Origin: Cylicocyclus nassatus
Taxonomy: Eukaryota > Nematoda > Chromadorea > Rhabditida > Strongylidae
NCBI GenBank assembly: GCA_958299035.1
Contig: CATQJL010000316.1
Coordinates: 10,076,347 to 10,140,346 of the forward strand
Reading direction: 5' to 3'
Length of the DNA: 64,000 nt
Position 1 is the stretch's first letter, and each line of letters starts with the position of its first letter. Under the pieces are notes generated by a model. It was given only the letters and a program-made list of their open reading frames with translations, was not told the origin of the DNA and searched no databases. The translations under genes and the position numbers were made by a program. Positions 363 through 62,686 of the stretch are shown here, one piece after another.

Positions 363-580
363 TGTTGTAGAGCCGTCCCTTATATTGGAACTTGCTCACT
401 CACTATAGGCTAGATCGATATGGTCTCTGTGGTTGCGGCGTACCCGCCGCACCTTGATATCTTTGTGTGTGTTGTTCTCTTGTTATTCCTAGTGAACCCT
501 CGGCATGTACGCCGATAGGCAGAGGGGGAACTCTTGTGTTTTTCTAATAAATTGTCAACGGCTCAACGCGTTCCACAACA
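363..580 (+). repeat. 5' LTR of the retrotransposon
   Basis: 218 bp, bounded by TGTTGT and ACAACA inverted ends and preceded by target-site copy AAAAG at 358-362. It is identical to the 3' LTR except at 549. Confidence 0.93.
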
Positions 581-582
581 AC

Positions 583-600
583 TGGCGATCAGGATCAAGG
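583..600 (+). promoter_or_regulatory. Putative primer-binding site
   Basis: The sequence starting TGGCGATCAGGATC lies two bases inside the 5' LTR boundary, where a tRNA 3' end (complement of CCA) primes minus-strand synthesis. I cannot name the tRNA. Confidence 0.5.
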
Positions 601-734
601 ACAGGAAGACTCCACCATCAACCGAGGACGAGAAGAAGCTCCATCGCCGACTAAGGAGAAGAAGAAGCCTGCAATCAACTTCAAGGACAACTTCTCCAGA
701 TAAGTTCTATTTGACTCGTCGTTGCAGCGGAGCC

Positions 735-3173
735 ATGCCGAAGGTTGCAGAAGAGCGGCATGCGGCGGATCTGGAGAAGGTCCTCAACGTCATGATGGAG
801 CAGATGCGGCTTCAACAAGAAGAAGTTCGGATTCAGATACAAGCCCAGCAAAAACAAGTGCAGATGCAGCTGCAAGCTCAGCAAGAGCAAATGAGGACGC
901 TGATCTCCGCTCTGGCCAGTAATCAGGGAGCCGTCCAAGACACCAGCAAGGATCAGTACGATCAGCTGAGTAAGGACGTGCAAAGGTTCGTCTCAGACGA
1001 AGAAACAGGTAACACCTTTGCGTACTGGTATGGCAGGTACGGACCGGTTATACGCGACTCCCAGCTTTCGGATCAGAAGAAGCGCGACTTAATCCTAATG
1101 AAGCTGGATGAAGAAGCATACCGGAAGTATGCTGATGAGGTCTTGCCTGCGCAACCGAGCGACTTGGACTTCGACACCACCGTCGCGAATCTCCAGAAGC
1201 TGTTCGCCTCCAAGAAGACGCTCATCAGGAGACGGTATGAGTGCCTGAGGATAACCTGCCATCCGCTTACTCCAGCGTACGTACCGTTCCGCGAGTACGC
1301 CAACACTATCAAGCGGATGGACGAGGACGCCCGGCTTAAGGAGGTCGACTACACGGCGATGAAGACGCTGCAGTTCGTAGCAGGTCTTCAAGATCCCTCG
1401 CTTAGGGAAGTTCGCCTTCGGATGATTCGTCGACTGGACGCTCACACGGACGAAGCACCGCTGACAATCGAGGACCTAGTCGCGGAATGTGAAAACTTTA
1501 CTGCCCTGAAAATGGATAATACAGACATGGAAGGCACGCGAGACATCCATGCTGTATGGAAGAAAAAGGTAAATTGCTTCATATGCGGAGGACCACATTT
1601 CAGAAGAGAATGCCCTCAATCTGGCAGCACTGGTCGGAAGAAGCGACGAAGGACAAGTACAAAACACTTTTGTCGCAAGGGACAGTGCAAGAATGTGGTC
1701 GTTTTCGACGCCGAGAAGGCGCGGACTTATATCGACGTCGTAATCAAAGGATGTTCCCTCAAGCTACAGCTAGACACAGGTGCGGATATAACCCTGATTT
1801 CGCGAAGAGCCTGGAAGAGGATGGGATCCCCTGCTCTGGAACCCTGTGTATTGCCCGTGAAAACTGCAGGCGGGACGTCGATGAAGGTATATGGTAAATT
1901 CTCAACCGACTTTTCCGTCAGAGATCGAGTTACAGGGAAGATGCTTCATGGAAATGGCACATGCTATGTCACCGAAGGCTCGAATCTACTAGGACTGGAA
2001 TGGTGCATCCAGCTGCCGGCATACAAAAAGCTGAAGGGCAACTTCCATTGCAGAAAGGCGACTAACGAAGAGAAAATCCGAGCCGAAGTGGTCGCCGACT
2101 CAAAGAATAAGTATGGAGAAGTCTTGAACAGCGACCTAGGAAAGTGCAGGAAGAGTAAGGGCATCAACAGAGACATCAAGCACTCAGTGCGCTGCTGTAG
2201 GGATTGTCAAGAAGCCTCCAAAATGCCAATGAAGACGTTGCTGCATTCATGGAAAGTAGAAGACAAACCATGGAATCGACTTCACATTGACTACGCAGGG
2301 CCGCTGAATGGTAAGATGTATCTCGTCGTAGTTGACGCTTACTCGAAATGGCCAGAAGTTTTTGAGATGCCTTCATCGTCAACTACAGCTACTCTCAGAA
2401 AACTCAGATCTCTATTCGCACGATTTGGAAATCCGCAAGTGATCGTGTCGGATAAGGGGACGCAGTTCACAACAAAGGAGTTCCAAGATTTCTGTGAAGA
2501 GCGAGGAATCAAGCATATGCGTTCACCTCCATTCCATCCACAACCAAATGGACAAGCGGAGAGGTTTGTGGATATCTTCAAAAGGACCTTCCAGAAAATT
2601 AAGAAGGGAGGAACGGCAGAGAAGCTCGCGGAGTTTCTGCAGTCTTATCGACGAACGCCTTGTGCAACTGCTCTAGGACAACGTTCGCCTGCCGAGCTGC
2701 TCCTGGGACGTCAGATAAGGACACCACTGTTGCTGCTCAATGAAGATTCCAAAGAAGAGGGAATGGGCAATAAATCTATGGAGAAGCAGTTCAACCGCCG
2801 TCACGGAGCACGAAAGAAATCGTACCAGCCACAAGAAGCCGTGTGGGTACGTGAATTTCGCTCTGGATGTGAAAAATGGATTCCAGCACGAGTGAAGAAA
2901 CGATATGGAGAAGCGCTATATGGCGTGCTCACGGAAGACGGTCAGTTATGGAGACGACATGCGAACCAGATGCGCCGCGCAGCAAGTATGGATCGACATC
3001 ACGACTCAACACAGTCCATCCCCGACGAAGGCCGACTTAACAATGCTATGGATGCTGCTGAACGCAAGCCACCTCGTCTACGCCACCGACATCAACCAGA
3101 CCAAGTCCATCGTCGCCCACCAGAACGTCTACAAGTAGATCCTTGTTATAAGATGTACCGTTGTTCATCTTAG
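735..3173 (+). CDS. Gag-protease-integrase polyprotein lacking RT/RNase H
   Basis: The frame is open for 812 codons from the ATG at 735; it stays open upstream into the LTR, but with no earlier ATG. The N-terminal third is Gag-like, with a Gln/Glu-rich coiled-coil-like stretch at about residues 20-65. A zinc knuckle CFICGGPHFRREC follows at 281-293 (CX2CX3HX4C, one residue shorter than the classical spacing). The retropepsin motif LDTGADITL has its catalytic Asp at 347. The integrase core has D519, D573 and E609, with exactly 35 residues between the last two, and a GPY/F-like chromodomain-free C-terminus. After about residue 470 (motif LGKCRKSKG, normally the entry to RT) the frame jumps to the CCRDC half of the integrase zinc finger. 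RT, RNase H and the HH half of that finger are therefore absent, without loss of frame. The stop at 3171 abuts the purine tract. Confidence 0.88.
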   Translation: MPKVAEERHAADLEKVLNVMMEQMRLQQEEVRIQIQAQQKQVQMQLQAQQEQMRTLISALASNQGAVQDTSKDQYDQLSKDVQRFVSDEETGNTFAYWYGRYGPVIRDSQLSDQKKRDLILMKLDEEAYRKYADEVLPAQPSDLDFDTTVANLQKLFASKKTLIRRRYECLRITCHPLTPAYVPFREYANTIKRMDEDARLKEVDYTAMKTLQFVAGLQDPSLREVRLRMIRRLDAHTDEAPLTIEDLVAECENFTALKMDNTDMEGTRDIHAVWKKKVNCFICGGPHFRRECPQSGSTGRKKRRRTSTKHFCRKGQCKNVVVFDAEKARTYIDVVIKGCSLKLQLDTGADITLISRRAWKRMGSPALEPCVLPVKTAGGTSMKVYGKFSTDFSVRDRVTGKMLHGNGTCYVTEGSNLLGLEWCIQLPAYKKLKGNFHCRKATNEEKIRAEVVADSKNKYGEVLNSDLGKCRKSKGINRDIKHSVRCCRDCQEASKMPMKTLLHSWKVEDKPWNRLHIDYAGPLNGKMYLVVVDAYSKWPEVFEMPSSSTTATLRKLRSLFARFGNPQVIVSDKGTQFTTKEFQDFCEERGIKHMRSPPFHPQPNGQAERFVDIFKRTFQKIKKGGTAEKLAEFLQSYRRTPCATALGQRSPAELLLGRQIRTPLLLLNEDSKEEGMGNKSMEKQFNRRHGARKKSYQPQEAVWVREFRSGCEKWIPARVKKRYGEALYGVLTEDGQLWRRHANQMRRAASMDRHHDSTQSIPDEGRLNNAMDAAERKPPRLRHRHQPDQVHRRPPERLQVDPCYKMYRCSS

Positions 3174-3181
3174 GAGGGAGG
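3172..3181 (+). promoter_or_regulatory. Polypurine tract
   Basis: AGGAGGGAGG sits directly before the 3' LTR, the expected plus-strand primer position. It overlaps the stop codon of the polyprotein. Confidence 0.75.
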
Positions 3182-3399
3182 TGTTGTAGAGCCGTCCCTT
3201 ATATTGGAACTTGCTCACTCACTATAGGCTAGATCGATATGGTCTCTGTGGTTGCGGCGTACCCGCCGCACCTTGATATCTTTGTGTGTGTTGTTCTCTT
3301 GTTATTCCTAGTGAACCCTCGGCATGTACGCCGATAGGCAGAGGGGGAACTCTTGTGTTTTTCTAATGAATTGTCAACGGCTCAACGCGTTCCACAACA
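3182..3399 (+). repeat. 3' LTR of the retrotransposon
   Basis: 218 bp direct copy of 363-580, followed by target-site copy AAAAG at 3400-3404. Confidence 0.93.
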
Positions 3400-3529
3400 A
3401 AAAGCATTACTGTTGAGTGCAAATTCTACATAAAGTGAGTGTCATTAGAAATCTAAAGCAAGACTTTCAGCCCTTTTGATTCTTTTTTCTTGGGGAAATG
3501 GCTCATGATGTATTGAAATCTGCTTCAGA
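3400..3529. repeat. Foldback element: distal right arm
   Basis: Reverse complement of positions 1 to about 128, displaced from the rest of its arm by the LTR retrotransposon. It may extend beyond 3529, since its partner reaches the window edge. Confidence 0.9.
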
Positions 3530-33850: not shown

Positions 33851-35577
33851 TACAAGGGAGCTACCAGATTTTTTTCTACAGAAATCGTGATATCACACAG
33901 CAGATATCATGCAGTGGACGCCAAGTACAGTCGAGTAGATTTAGCGGTAAATATAGTGTGCTTGCACAGAAGGTGAAATGCGGTGAAATTAGCGCGTGAA
34001 GAAATAGTTTCGACTGTGACGCCGGCCAATTGCGCGCGCAAGATACCCGCGGTACTGAGGTGGCTACTTGTTCACGCGCAAATTTCACCGCATTTCACCT
34101 TCTGTACAAGCACACTATATTTACCGCTAAATCTACTCGACTGCACATAGCTGTAGCTGTTGGGATTTTTTTGGGGCTAAAAAAGAAACAAAAATACTTT
34201 GAAAATGCAAAAAATGTTTCTTTTTTCGGTTTCTTTGTGTAAAATGTCATATTTCTCGATGATTGGGTGCATACAGGGATAAGATTTTTATGCTTTCATC
34301 AAATACAATCGCCACCTTGTTTTGCATATGTAGGCAAGTCCTACAAAATATGCGAAACAAACTGGCGTTTGTATTTGAGATCGGCCGTTATTTTTTCTCA
34401 CTCAAAAAATATGCAAAATGCATACAAAGGATTGTGTGCGAATGTCACATGCTGACCAGGTAGGGGATGCAATTTCTTTGGAGATCCAATTTTTGGGGCA
34501 CTCTGTTTATAAATTTTGGCTTTAAACTCCGTGATTACAATTTACGCCAATATCTGGTGTTTACTTTGTGGAATGCTTTGCTTAATCGAATTCTGCCCAC
34601 TCATTTTTTAAGATATATTCACACCACGGCTGTAGCAAAAGAAACACTCTCATTTTGCATCGACTCACTTCAAAACTATTTTGATATACTTATTGTTATG
34701 TATTATGATTTAGAGCTACTGAATTACAACGTTATTGCTAAGTGCTGTAGGGTAAGAGTCGAAACATACAGCAGTTGCATCACAAAGTTCCTTCTAAAAG
34801 CCAGATTGACACTGCTGTAATGTATTGTTAACTAAGTTGTGCCACGTAAGACAGGCATACGATTGTAATTAGGAAGAATCAAAGACGTTTGATGAATACA
34901 TTGTAACATTCTGTGGAACTTAGTGACAGAAGGGCTAGGAATTATGTACATGACATATCCTGCAATCGTTATGGCTATGAACATGAGGACGGCTGCCAAA
35001 TTGTGAGAAACGTCTCAAATAAAGGATATGCAATCCTCCTCGGTAGCAAAGCTTTCTTGGAATTCACAATGATATTGAAGCTCAAATCACTAAATTAAAA
35101 TAGAACTATGGGTACATATGGACTTTTTCTACCTATTAGGTTCTTTTTGCAAAGCATTTTGCAAATTTCATTGTTTATTCCTGCACAAAGAAGCACACAC
35201 AGATGAATGAGATACTGGAGATTAGGAAGAGAAATTTGCAACCCTAGCCGATCTTATGCTTGATCTGGCGGAAGTAAGCGAGTCTTTAACCAATGCTTAT
35301 TTGAACAGTGCTCTTCAGAGAATGGTGATGGCTAGCGCTTTATGCAGCCACTTTAACTGCAGCACTCATGTTCTTTACTATCAAGATTAGTCTTCGAACT
35401 TATACACAAGAACAGCTGCAGACGCCAGAGAAAAATTATCAAAATTCTCATGATGTTAAAACCCTACGCATTTCGCTTCCGAATTAGCATCGCGATATTG
35501 AAGTTTGGCCACATCACGCTTCTGACGAACGAAGTACCCTCTTCATCATTTAGAGTGAGCCCGACTCGAGCGGCTAA
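33851..35577 (+). repeat. Dispersed 1.7-kb repeat, copy 1
   Basis: Collinear with 60891-62686 in the same orientation, from GAGCTACCAGATT to GAGCCCGACTCGAG, at about 85-90% identity by eye outside insertions. This copy carries the 216-bp foldback 33928-34143, which the other lacks. No intact coding region is seen. A decayed DNA transposon or other interspersed element is likely. Confidence 0.85.
33928..34143. repeat. 216-bp foldback inserted in the 1.7-kb repeat
   Basis: Arms of about 75 bp from CAGTCGAGTAGATTTAGCGG to GCGGTGAAATT are mirrored at the right, ending CGACTG at 34143. It is absent from the sister copy at 60891-62686, which shows it was inserted. Confidence 0.85.
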
Positions 35578-35817
35578 GGCCTAAGGCACACCTCTCGCGA
35601 TTCCGTCAAATCGCTACATCCGAGCGACTTGGCAATTTGCTAGATGTCTTCAGATCAACCGTGCGCGGATTTCAAAAGCACAGGCGTGTGGCTTGTGCAA
35701 GTTGTCGCAAAGGCATTGAGTCTGGCCCAAGCAAAGCGCACTTAGTACCATTTATGAAGAATTGTTGTAGTGCTAAATCGCGCAGCGACTGAAATCGCGT
35801 GAGGTATGCCTAAGGCC
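35578..35817. repeat. Inverted-repeat element, GGCCTAAGGCA ends
   Basis: GGCCTAAGGCACACCTC at the left faces GAGGTATGCCTAAGGCC at the right, abutting the end of the 1.7-kb repeat. About 240 bp, MITE-like. Confidence 0.75.
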
Positions 35818-47517: not shown

Positions 47518-49188
47518 CGATCGATAAAAAAAAGTAGCCTAATCCCCGAAGTGTATGTGTGCAAAGTTTGGTTCGGATAGGTGCACAAACGAATATTCTA
47601 TTCGGAACAACATACGTACACACATAAATACTAACACACATACAGACAGACAGAGACAACATTCACCTTCATATTTAAAACCTGAGCACAGTTCCCCATA
47701 AACGAAGTAACGTCTGCAAGAATTAGTGATAAAACTATTACTTTTTTACTTGTGGCTGTGATCAGCTGCTCATCGACTTCCTCGGACCTCAGATCCTTCT
47801 CTCCCCCCCCCCCCTCCCCCGCCGAAAGTGAGTAGTTTCACTATCGTCCGTAGACTATGTCACATTACGGGTACCGTAAGTCACTCAAGGGCAACTTACT
47901 GGACACGTAAAAGAATTTTCTCTAAACTTCCACTTTTACACACTGTTTACGGCCGTTGACCTTCCGATCCACCCTTGACTTACAGCAAATTCGAGGAGTA
48001 GAGGCAAGATGGTGTTTTCGCACGGCGTCTTCAGCGCTACCCTGATAACTTGTCCGCACACGTCACGACTTGGCGGATCTTCCCTTCGCTTTGCTTGAGC
48101 AAAGCCCTCGCAATGTGTGTGCGCGGCGGTGGTCCTGTGTGGAAAGATTATGGTCGTGACTCGTTTTATATCCGCGCGCAGAAGCAGATAGGCAGTCCAT
48201 CCTCTGTCATCCTCACAGGGTCAGAGCAACGATGCTTACCTTGCAAAACAGAAATTCAACATGCTCAAAATAAGGCTTCGTACAAAAAGCATTTCTAAAT
48301 GTTATAATGTATTCTTCAAGAGCCTGTCTAAGTGGCGTAGCAATGGCTTTTACTGTGGGCTTTAGAGATTATAACAAGGCGTTATGAGCTGACGTAAGAC
48401 ATAGAAGAAATAGTTTACGATTAGAGGAGAGTTGTTCCTTATAAATGCAAGCTGGAAGGTGTGGCTTTGTTTTGCTCCCATTCTCTAGACAGAATAGACC
48501 GAGCTTTGGCAGAAACTCCGCAAATAATTCTCTCAACTTTCTCAACTATGGCGTCTCGCTCTCTTTTTGTTTGTTTAAAGAGTCAAATCATCCATGATAC
48601 TACCCAGTACTTTGCTTGGGTAAAGCCACTATCATGTTCTAGCATGAACCACACACGGCACTAGATTGAAGTTGTGCCCCAGTCAAAATGCCCTGTATAT
48701 TTTATGGCCCTTGCCGTAATTGTTTTATAAACTCTTTATGTATAGCATATAAAGGACGTTTTTTCACTTATTTTGACTTCTTTAGTCTACATTTTTAGCG
48801 CAAAGTTCGTTGAAGATTTTGCAAAAACTGCGTTATTTCAAAATGAGAAATCATTCTTGTTTTGGATGCACTCTGTCGCACATCTTCTCATAAACATTGT
48901 GAATACTTTCTAAACTCTTTGCCTCTTCTTCGCGGCCTCGGAGAAGGATGTCAGAAAAATTTAGGTTTGAGGCTCATTTTCTTATTTATTAAAATACGTT
49001 CTTTCGGAATGGATTGAATTCCACGAAAATTAAAAAAATTTTTAGCGGTATACGAGATTCTCTGAGAGAAATGCTCTTTTCTTTACTAGCATCTCGAAAA
49101 AAAAAACTTTGTTGGGGCCTCCGGATTTGGTGAGCACAATCAAGCAAACGCACCAAAATTTGAAGTATTTGATGCCAGACAACCTCCA
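47518..49188. other. Repeat fragments and spacer, no gene recognised
   Basis: Holds an inverted copy of the 18.7-18.9 kb repeat (about 47530-47665) and dispersed repeat copy 1 (48019-48165). Nothing else is supported. Confidence 0.4.
48019..48165 (+). repeat. Dispersed repeat, direct copy 1
   Basis: TTTTCGCACGG, a central GCTTAGGCAAA/GCTTGAGCAAA block and a GGTGTGTGGAAAG-like end recur at 55792-55940 at about 70-75% identity by eye. Confidence 0.6.
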
Positions 49189-49777
49189 CTCAGATAATCG
49201 CCGGGGGCAAGCGGTCCGCAAACTCGCGCTTTTCTGCAGGCGGTCAGCAGAATTTTGAGGCGTAGCCAAACATTCAGCGGGCGGCACTTCCTTTACGGTC
49301 GCATATTCTGCCAGCGGGCAGCAATACAGCATTTTTTGCAAGCGCTCGGCAAGTAAATTCTTTCAGCGAGCGCTGGCCGAACTTTCAGCAAGCGCTCGGA
49401 CTCTTTTTAGGCATTTTCGGGCGTACGTCGAGCGCAGACAAGACTCTGTGTGACAGAGGTGTGACCGTTGGTTTAATTACTCAAGTTTGAGGTACTTTCT
49501 CTCAGCGGAAAGTACCTGGGGGCTGCGCGGTCCTCCACAAAGGACCGTGCGGCCCTCGAAATTTTTGCATATTCTCGCGGAAAGTCCGCGAGAATGCGGC
49601 CACTGCGCCGCAGCTAATCCATAAAGAAACCGCGATTGTTCTTCAAGCATTCGTCTTTAATTTCGCCAACTTTCTTCCAAATTTCTGCAAGCGGGCCGCA
49701 GAAAATCAACGAACTATTTTTCCGGTGCGCGCTTGCTCAAAATTCGCATGGCCGCCTGCCCCCGGCGGTTATCTGAG
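49189..49777 (+). mobile_element. TIR element carrying an SL RNA gene, copy A
   Basis: A 589-bp unit with terminal inverted repeats CTCAGATAAYCGCCGGGGGC (about 26 bp in all), flanked on both sides by CA, a likely 2-bp target duplication. It is 586/589 identical to 59455-60043. All three differences I count lie upstream of the SL leader, and the flanks are unrelated. No transposase is encoded. The 5' half carries repeated GCGCTCGG motifs; the middle is a complete SL RNA gene. It therefore looks like a non-autonomous DNA element that has captured, or evolved around, an SL RNA gene. Confidence 0.85.
49470..49595 (+). ncRNA. Spliced-leader RNA gene (SL1 variant), copy A
   Basis: Donates a 22-nt leader to pre-mRNA 5' ends by trans-splicing, as an Sm-bound snRNP. 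The leader (49470-49491) starts GGTTTAATTAC and ends CAAGTTTGAG, matching canonical SL1 except T for C at position 12. A GT donor follows at once (49492). Stem I pairs 49491-49499 with 49508-49516 and encloses the splice site. Stem II pairs 49520-49533 with 49542-49555 (two G-U pairs). The Sm site AAATTTTTG (49559-49567) is next, then stem III, an 11-bp perfect stem 49571-49581/49585-49595. This is the canonical SL RNA order. About 126 nt, slightly longer than typical. The promoter element was not identified, and function is not proven. Confidence 0.85.
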
Positions 49778-50172
49778 CAAGCGCCTTGAAGACTGCTAGG
49801 AGTCATATCAAGTCATGATGAAGTCATATCAATCTGTGGGTTATGTCAATTGCATGAAAGATTGAGGAAAAGGCGCTGCTGCGCATATACTAAAAAATTG
49901 ATCATAATGTACCTGTGGTTTATATCTAACATATAGAGAATCGTTAGCTCAATTCAAAAATCTTCCAATGGCGGATCCCGAAACGTACGCTCTTCCAAAC
50001 AGCACCTTTAGATTACTGGTTCACTAGTTCGAAGAAATAAAATTTGATCGTAAGCGTAGAAGTTTTATTTTGATCTGTACACGAACAAATCCGTCCTCGT
50101 CAATTTTTAACTCTACGATTCTCATGAATACATAACGACTGGACACATAGCAGAAGTCCGTAGGTCGTTGCA
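49778..50172. other. Spacer and probable promoter of the secreted-protein gene
   Basis: About 395 bp between the SL element and the start codon at 50173; no motif I can name. Confidence 0.4.
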
Positions 50173-59454: not shown

Positions 59455-60043
59455 CTCAGATAATCGCCGAGGGCAAGCGGTCCGCAAACTCGCGCTTTTC
59501 TGCAGGCGGTCAGCAGAATTTTGAGGCGTAGCCAAACATTCAGCGGGCGGCACTTCCTTTACGGTCGCATATTCTGCCAGCGGGCAGCAATACAGCATTT
59601 TTTGCAAGCGCTCGGCAAGTAAATTCTTTCAGCGAGCGCTGGCCGAACTTTCAGCAAGCGCTCGGACTCTTTTTAGGCATTTTCGGGCGTACGTCGAGCG
59701 CAGGCAAGACTCTGTGTGGCAGAGGTGTGACCGTTGGTTTAATTACTCAAGTTTGAGGTACTTTCTCTCAGCGGAAAGTACCTGGGGGCTGCGCGGTCCT
59801 CCACAAAGGACCGTGCGGCCCTCGAAATTTTTGCATATTCTCGCGGAAAGTCCGCGAGAATGCGGCCACTGCGCCGCAGCTAATCCATAAAGAAACCGCG
59901 ATTGTTCTTCAAGCATTCGTCTTTAATTTCGCCAACTTTCTTCCAAATTTCTGCAAGCGGGCCGCAGAAAATCAACGAACTATTTTTCCGGTGCGCGCTT
60001 GCTCAAAATTCGCATGGCCGCCTGCCCCCGGCGGTTATCTGAG
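59455..60043 (+). mobile_element. TIR element carrying an SL RNA gene, copy B
   Basis: Same 589-bp unit, length and orientation as 49189-49777, with three substitutions, all 5' of the leader. Flanked by TA on both sides, where copy A has CA, so each copy has its own 2-bp duplication. That favours transposition over a segmental duplication of this 10-kb neighbourhood, whose other sequences are not duplicated. Confidence 0.85.
59736..59861 (+). ncRNA. Spliced-leader RNA gene (SL1 variant), copy B
   Basis: Identical to copy A across the leader, donor, stems I-III and the Sm site (59825-59833). The leader is 59736-59757, again with T at position 12. No 5S rRNA gene lies nearby, unlike the tandem 5S/SL1 arrangement known in Caenorhabditis. 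Confidence 0.85.
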
Positions 60044-60890: not shown

Positions 60891-62686
60891 TACAAGGCAG
60901 CTACCGGATTTTTTTTCAGAAATCGTGGTATCACACAGCAGACATTATCCTACAGTGGACGCTAAAGTACTTAGATGTAATTGCTAGAAAATTTTCGAGG
61001 CTAAAAGTCAAGAAACAAAGATAGATACCATAAGATTGCAAAAATGTTGCTTATTTCGGTTTTTTGTGCAAAATGTCATTCGATGATTGGGGTGCAAACA
61101 GGGAGAAGATTTTCATGCTTTCGTCAAATACAATCGCCAGCTTGTTTTGCATATGTGGGCAAGTCCTAAAACATATGCGAAACAAACTGGTAGAGAAGAT
61201 TTTCATGCTTTCGTCAAATACAATCGCCAGCTTGTTTTGCATATGTGGGCAAGTCCTAAAACATATGCGAAACAAACTGGTATTGTATTTGCGATCGGCC
61301 GTTATTTTTTCCTAATCAAAAAAAAAACGCGAAATGCATACATTGGATTGTGTGCGAATGTCACGTGCTGACTATGCAGGGGATGCAATCTTCTGGATTG
61401 AGATCTAATTTTGGGGCACTCTGTTTTAGATTTTAGCTTTAAACTCCATGTATAGTCGATTCGTTGACCGCACGGACTGGACATCACTGCGGAGCAAGCA
61501 CCGCGAGCTAAAAGCCTGCCCCAGTACAAATTCGCCATTGTACAAGTCGTGCTCTCGCAACAATTCGGCCGCTCCGCATGTGGTCCGCAGCGTTTGAGCA
61601 GTCCGTGCGGTCGACGAATCAACGGTATGTTACAATTAACACCAATATCTGGTGTTTACTTTATGGAATGCTTTGTTTAATCGAATTCTGCCACCCATTT
61701 TTAACAATATATTCGCACTGCGGCTGTAGCAAAAGAAGCACTCTCATTTTGTATCGACTCATTTTGAAACTCTTTCGATATATGTCATATATTATAGTTT
61801 AGAGCTACTGAATTACATCGTTATTGCTAAGTGCTGTAGGATAAAATTCGAAACATACAGCAGTTGCTTCACAAAGTCCCTTCTAAAAGCCAGATTGACA
61901 CTGCTGTAATGTATTGTTAATAAGTTGTGCCACGTAAGACATATGATATAGGCATATGATTGCGATTAGGAAGAATCAAAGACGTTTGATGAATACATTG
62001 TAACACTCTGTGAGATTCAGTGATAGAAGGGTTAAGAATCATGTACATGACATATCCTACAATCGTTATAGAAACACTATGAACATTAGAAAGGCTGCCA
62101 AATCGTGAGGAACGTCTCGAATAAAGGATATGCAACCCTCCTCGGTAGCAAAGCTTTCTTGGAATTCACGAAGATACTAAACCTTAAATCGCTGAGTTGA
62201 AATTAGAATTATAAGTACATGATGGACTTTTTTACCTATTAGGTTCTTGAAAAGCTTTTTGCAGATTTCGTTGTTTATTCCTGCACAAAACACACACCGA
62301 TGAGTGAGATACTGGAGATTAGGAAGAGAAATATGCCAACCGTAGACGATTTTGTGCTTGATCTTACGGGTAAGCGAGTCTTTAACCACTGTTTGTTTGA
62401 AAAGTACTCTTCAGAGAATGGTGACGGCTGGCGCTTATATGCCAGCCACTTTATACACGGCACTGTTCTTTACTATCAAGAATAGTCTTCGAACTTATAC
62501 GCAAGAACAGCTGCAGACATTAGAGAGCAATTGTGAAAATTTTCAGTAATGATGTTAGAACCCAGTGCAGCTTCGCTTTCGAATTATTATCGCGATATGA
62601 CTGAAGGTTGGCCAAATCATTACGTTTTTGACGAATGAAGTACCCTCTTCTTCATTTGGAGTGAGCCCGACTCGAGTGGCTGAGGC
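60891..62686 (+). repeat. Dispersed 1.7-kb repeat, copy 2
   Basis: Collinear with 33851-35577. It differs by a 78-bp tandem duplication (61117-61272, unit starting AGAAGATTTTCATGCTTTCG) and by the TIR insertion at 61457-61621. Short frames are not conserved between copies, which argues against coding function. Confidence 0.85.
61457..61621. repeat. TIR element inserted in copy 2
   Basis: CGATTCGTTGACCGCACGGA at the left and its inverse (GTCCGTGCGGTCGACGAATC) at the right. Absent from the sister copy, which defines it as an insertion of about 165-175 bp. Confidence 0.85.

Follow-up and report, generated by a model that had tools for sequence, protein, structure and literature searches.

A spliced-leader (SL) RNA gene has been dispersed by a non-autonomous DNA transposon (MITE) to more than 1,000 sites of the Cylicocyclus nassatus genome, and the copies described below establish this dispersal firmly. 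Two copies of the 589-bp unit lie in the window, which is the whole stretch of 64,000 nucleotides that was analysed. In our assessment, it is very probable that the unit is such a MITE and that its cargo is a complete SL1-type SL RNA gene. The wider reading that we put forward, with a probability of roughly one in three, is that selection acts here on SL RNA genes carried as transposon cargo. A DNA transposon would then be multiplying a working variant SL donor, whose exact leaders are about eight times as numerous as the SL1 genes of the tandem arrays. LTR retrotransposons would in turn have an exact SL1 exon and a donor within their LTRs, probably close to where transcription starts, and mobile DNA would both supply and imitate the leader.

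The first copy of the unit occupies positions 49189..49777 of the window, with the SL RNA gene on the + strand. It is bounded by terminal inverted repeats of 26 nt (left, 49189..49214, + strand; right, 49752..49777, − strand) that are 92% complementary, and by a CA target-site duplication at 49187..49188 and 49778..49779. The second copy (59455..60043, + strand) is 99.5% identical to the first and is flanked by TA on both sides. The first-pass annotation had described a 589-bp element with inverted termini of about 26 bp, a 2-bp flanking repeat and a second, 99.5% identical copy at 59455 with other flanks, all of which was borne out. The two window copies have 11 derived variants in common, of which any other of the 62 aligned copies has at most five; judged by these shared variants, they are thus recent siblings, 10 kb apart. 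The ends of the unit are CTCAGATAA and begin with CTCAG, and GCARGCG-like repeats run along its left arm and recur inverted near the right end. The 589 bp hold no transposase frame, as none of the five window ORFs of at least 150 aa overlaps the first copy.

The leader exon of copy 1 (49470..49491, + strand; GGTTTAATTACTCAAGTTTGAG) is identical to SL1 at 21 of 22 positions and has T for C at position 12 (T12); the second copy carries the same leader at 59736..59757 (+ strand). With up to three mismatches to SL1 allowed, the window had no further site, and none arose in 100 shuffles. A GT splice donor follows directly (49492..49493, + strand), in agreement with the annotated SL1-like leader with one substitution and an adjacent GT. 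The 131 nt from the leader onward are predicted to fold into three hairpins (−71.1 kcal/mol, z −8.5), namely hairpin I (49490..49517), with the donor site inside it, hairpin II (49518..49557) and hairpin III, with its core at 49573..49593. The Sm-like site AATTTTTG (49560..49567), which reads AAAATTTTG in older copies, lies between hairpins II and III on the same + strand, so the annotated arrangement of three stems with an Sm site between the second and the third was recovered. The last bases of AATTTTTG are, in the fold of minimum energy, taken up by a weak helix on the outside of hairpin III. By sequence, the spacing from the donor GT to ATTTTTG is 67 nt in the element versus 43 nt in the canonical SL1 gene, and it exceeds the default range given for SLIDR, with the Sm motif 20–60 nt after the donor (PMC7986045).

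A check against an SL RNA covariance model, which the first-pass annotation had suggested, gave a divided result. The Rfam SL1 alignment (RF00198) covered the whole element gene, but the score of 18 bits fell below the gathering score of 75, and the match was dropped as proof of an SL gene. Since the canonical SL1 array gene of the same genome also fails, at 37.5 bits, this cut-off is not decisive for the element. The RNA gene sits well within the unit, whose boundaries are about 280 bp upstream and about 180 bp downstream of it.

We have then searched the whole assembly (514,686,895 bases, or 515 Mb, in 369 contigs). The unit gave at least 62 matches, of which 43 spanned its full length, and each of the six large contigs had some; the count is a lower bound given that 40 of 3,134 first-look candidates were scored. 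The exact T12 leader occurred 1,105 times (reversed control, 0). The 100 sites listed among these were dispersed and in both orientations, and the first 30 listed, once fetched, all lay inside whole or partial copies of the element. When a 22-mer taken from the unit's right half was searched with up to two mismatches, it matched 1,732 sites (control, 0). The 64 full alignments represented 62 distinct full copies, 27 from loci picked by the exact leader and 35 not. An exact 2-bp target duplication flanked 49 of the 62, where about four were expected by chance, and it comprised 13 different dinucleotides; a duplication of 3 bp only was seen in three further copies, and 1-bp agreement (14/62) was at the chance level. 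In five cases, a full copy was nested within another copy and the target coordinates resumed within a few bases, so that the family itself reveals what the empty insertion site looks like. The family includes both old and recent copies.

The dispersal by a MITE-like unit that had been proposed from the window is thereby confirmed, and the genome-wide search for sharp ends and 2-bp duplications returned many such copies. We did not meet the unit in a head-to-tail tandem arrangement or in ordinary tandem arrays: its copies were dispersed and carried target duplications. Two of them, L018 (C305:69386476) and L027 (C305:69390632), are in opposite orientation and have identical near flanks, from which it follows that a longer segment was duplicated there.

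The MITE features examined are all present in the unit: inverted ends, target duplications, dispersed high copy number and a short length without a transposase frame. Tc1/mariner elements insert into TA only, and this class was rejected because only seven of the 49 duplications are TA. Elements of the CACTA-Mirage-Chapaev group make 2–3 bp duplications and have CACTA-type ends. The unit resembles them in its duplication length and in the repeats of its arms but differs in ends that begin with CTCAG instead of CACTA (CTCAGATAA); we take it to be CACTA-Mirage-Chapaev-like by duplication length and layout, with ends that are not CACTA-like. A transposase made elsewhere would recognise the inverted ends CTCAGATAAYCGCCG together with the GCARGCG-type arm repeats and move the unit, whereby the SL RNA gene would be copied to each new place.

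It is somewhat short of an even chance that the MITE captured an SL RNA gene that is now dead cargo, its T12 leader never being spliced onto mRNA. This possibility was approached through retrocopies, on the logic that in a retrocopied trans-spliced mRNA the leader is no longer followed by the donor. The donor G was missing after 37 of the 1,105 T12 leaders; all of these were read by eye, and they comprised 33 copies of the unit and four LTR-like sequences, with no mRNA-retrocopy-like sequence among the 37. The 582 canonical SL1 leaders included 90 without the donor G (67 with T and 23 with A or C). Twenty of the 23 A or C sites were fetched, and by eye 10 were LTR-like and 10 mRNA-retrocopy-like, two of the latter having an ATG directly after the leader; the canonical count covers these 20 sites, and the few of the 67 T sites that were seen were LTR-like. 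At L042 (C1:12993315), a further site and one with a G after the leader, canonical SL1 is joined directly to an uninterrupted CAP_C coding segment, which is likely a retrocopy of a trans-spliced mRNA. By these readings, the leader that occurs on mRNA-like sequence is canonical SL1, and both the retrocopy counts and the long donor-to-Sm spacing of 67 nt argue for dead cargo. Given 10 retrocopy-like sites with the canonical leader versus none with the variant, the T12 share of mRNA leaders is probably below about one quarter, with which a minor role is compatible.

The comparison between subfamilies argues against dead cargo. We have compared 31 young with 24 old copies, dropping seven intermediate ones, and counted as shared those differences that were present in at least 30% of the old copies; the leader was excluded because 27 of the 62 copies had been picked by its exact sequence. 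The 107 remaining SL RNA sites had 4 shared differences, and the 408 internal sites outside the SL RNA had 53 (p=0.005), a test based on these 4 and 53 differences and on 24 old copies, and no 107-nt window had fewer shared differences than the SL RNA body. Private singletons over the same sites were not depleted (48 versus 177, p=0.80). Such a pattern would be expected with free decay of copies once inserted and constraint on the SL RNA of those that propagate. The Sm-like site changes from AAAATTTTG, found in 23 of 24 older copies, to AAATTTTTG in younger ones, and yet stays Sm-like, which also speaks against dead cargo. The exact T12 leader was kept in 31 of the 35 full copies not picked by leader, with C12 in one old copy; in these 35 copies, the conservation of the leader alone was unexceptional (78 of 567 windows changed as little or less).

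The predicted structure was also examined for signs of constraint. Stem changes common to at least five copies kept pairing in seven cases and broke it in one, and private stem changes kept it in 19 and broke it in 23, the neutral expectation being 37% kept; over all distinct stem changes, 30 kept and 35 broke pairing, which was not significant (p=0.12). Among the 27 copies from leader-picked loci, change per copy was 0.047 in hairpin I and 0.048 in hairpin III, and 0.13 in each of hairpin II and the Sm segment, as in the rest of the unit. The structural evidence for constraint is therefore weak: hairpin II and the Sm segment change like the rest and the overall excess of kept pairing is not significant.

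If the mobile genes are in use, source copies would be transcribed as a capped small RNA, which would bind Sm proteins and give a small proportion of mRNAs their T12 leader. Working source copies would explain why the SL RNA body changed little between subfamilies despite the free decay of inserted copies. We infer a function of the variant leader in trans-splicing at about even odds: the apparent constraint on source copies speaks for leader supply, and the retrocopies and the Sm spacing speak against it. The promoter was examined with a matrix built from 13 of 14 fetched U2 upstream regions (46 U2 matches; L150, by eye without the shared block, was omitted). The element scored −6.5 and the canonical SL1 gene −12.5, on a scale where shuffles had a median of −10.5 and a 95% point of −0.6 and U2 regions left out one at a time scored 6.0 to 39.4; neither gene was recognised.

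The SL RNA part could also be kept for a reason at the DNA level, for instance if its hairpins aid excision or strand transfer, and not as RNA. We regard this as unlikely. In the 27 copies whose loci had been picked by leader, and with the leader set aside, the lowest change per copy is indeed that of hairpins I and III and the inverted ends, but hairpin II changes like the rest, and the kept leader, donor and Sm-like site would be left unexplained. That SL RNA genes spread by SINE-like retroposition or by segmental duplication, and are only seemingly bound to a transposon, is very improbable: at least one copy did arise with a longer duplicated segment (L018/L027), but for the family this is refuted by sharp inverted repeats at both ends, 2-bp target duplications, self-nested insertions and unit boundaries that lie well outside the RNA gene.

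The canonical SL1 genes of this genome, about 130 copies, reside in separate tandem arrays of 680 bp (C1:30138576-30172843, C1:31608630-31630427 and contig C37), and the SL RNA body of the element is unlike theirs. A stretch of 3 kb, which takes in roughly two units of one array plus flank, contained no 5S rRNA, so this array is not 5S-linked in that stretch. The first-pass annotation had seen in the element an explanation for multi-copy SL genes and leader variants. This is partly supported: T12 genes were spread by a MITE, but canonical SL1 sits in the separate arrays, and 0 of the 37 T12 sites without the donor G looked like mRNA retrocopies. At L091 (C1:31165020-31165420), canonical SL1 followed by GTACC or similar recurs in either orientation at a spacing of about 82 bp, and inverted repeats are present; by this layout, it is a third kind of SL1 repeat.

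Nematodes differ in the number, arrangement and leader sequence of their SL RNA genes. C. elegans is reported to have dispersed SL2-like genes, whereas its SL1 genes, about 110 copies, share a tandem array with those for 5S rRNA (PMC1657053). The element gene is like nematode SL1 RNA genes in its 22-nt leader with one substitution, GT donor, three stems and Sm-like site, and differs from them in being mobile and dispersed, in T12, in its longer Sm spacing and in a body unlike the canonical one. SL1 variants with a single substitution, each seen one time, are described from A. suum, B. malayi and N. brasiliensis mRNAs, and the same source states that their cognate genes were not identified in the B. 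malayi shotgun sequence (PMC1657053). Here, too, there is one substitution, with about 1,000 variant leaders in the genomic DNA. The literal T12 leader was absent from the open-licence literature searched.

Introners are likewise described as inverted-repeat units with splicing signals, but they bring an intron, whereas the cargo here is a gene for a trans-splicing donor RNA (PMC7789003). NeSL non-LTR retrotransposons also link nematode mobile DNA to SL exons; according to their description they target these exons, whereas the present element carries an SL gene (PMC4640811). Among the matches listed from titles and abstract starts of the open-licence literature, none described a DNA transposon with an SL RNA gene in it. 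Carriage of the entire gene by a transposon would be a direct mechanism for the amplification and relocation of SL genes and for the birth of leader variants. If source copies stay intact because their RNA works, a selfish element would be spreading a core component of mRNA processing.

Canonical SL1 was also found at 27 dispersed sites on contig C1 (L031-L057). Four pairs of these (L033/L034, L037/L038, L043/L044 and L050/L051) lie in the paired LTRs of retrotransposons, with LTRs of 339–686 bp, and most of the other sites are similar in layout. Directly after the exact 22-nt SL1, 20 of the 27 sites have GT and four have TTGAGGT; ATAAA occurs within 15 nt upstream of SL1 in 17, and 21 have a CGTGGC-like motif on the downstream side (control, 3). 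A primer site, TGGTGCATCGG, was located behind three of the SL1 sites (control, 0). Judging from this arrangement of motifs, transcripts of the LTR elements may begin with an SL1 exon and splice donor of their own, of which the matches listed from the literature (titles and abstract starts) held no report. The site L057 is a solo-LTR-like insertion with canonical SL1 that, by eye, lies inside a copy of the SL-carrying MITE.

The window contains other repeats as well. An open frame of 879 aa at 534-3173 is, by eye, retrotransposon polyprotein-like with an integrase, and it is flanked by direct repeats of 220 bp (362-581 and 3181-3400). A different repeat, over 1 kb long, is present in two diverged copies at 34265-35580 and 61090-62686, which are 78–94% alike in pieces.
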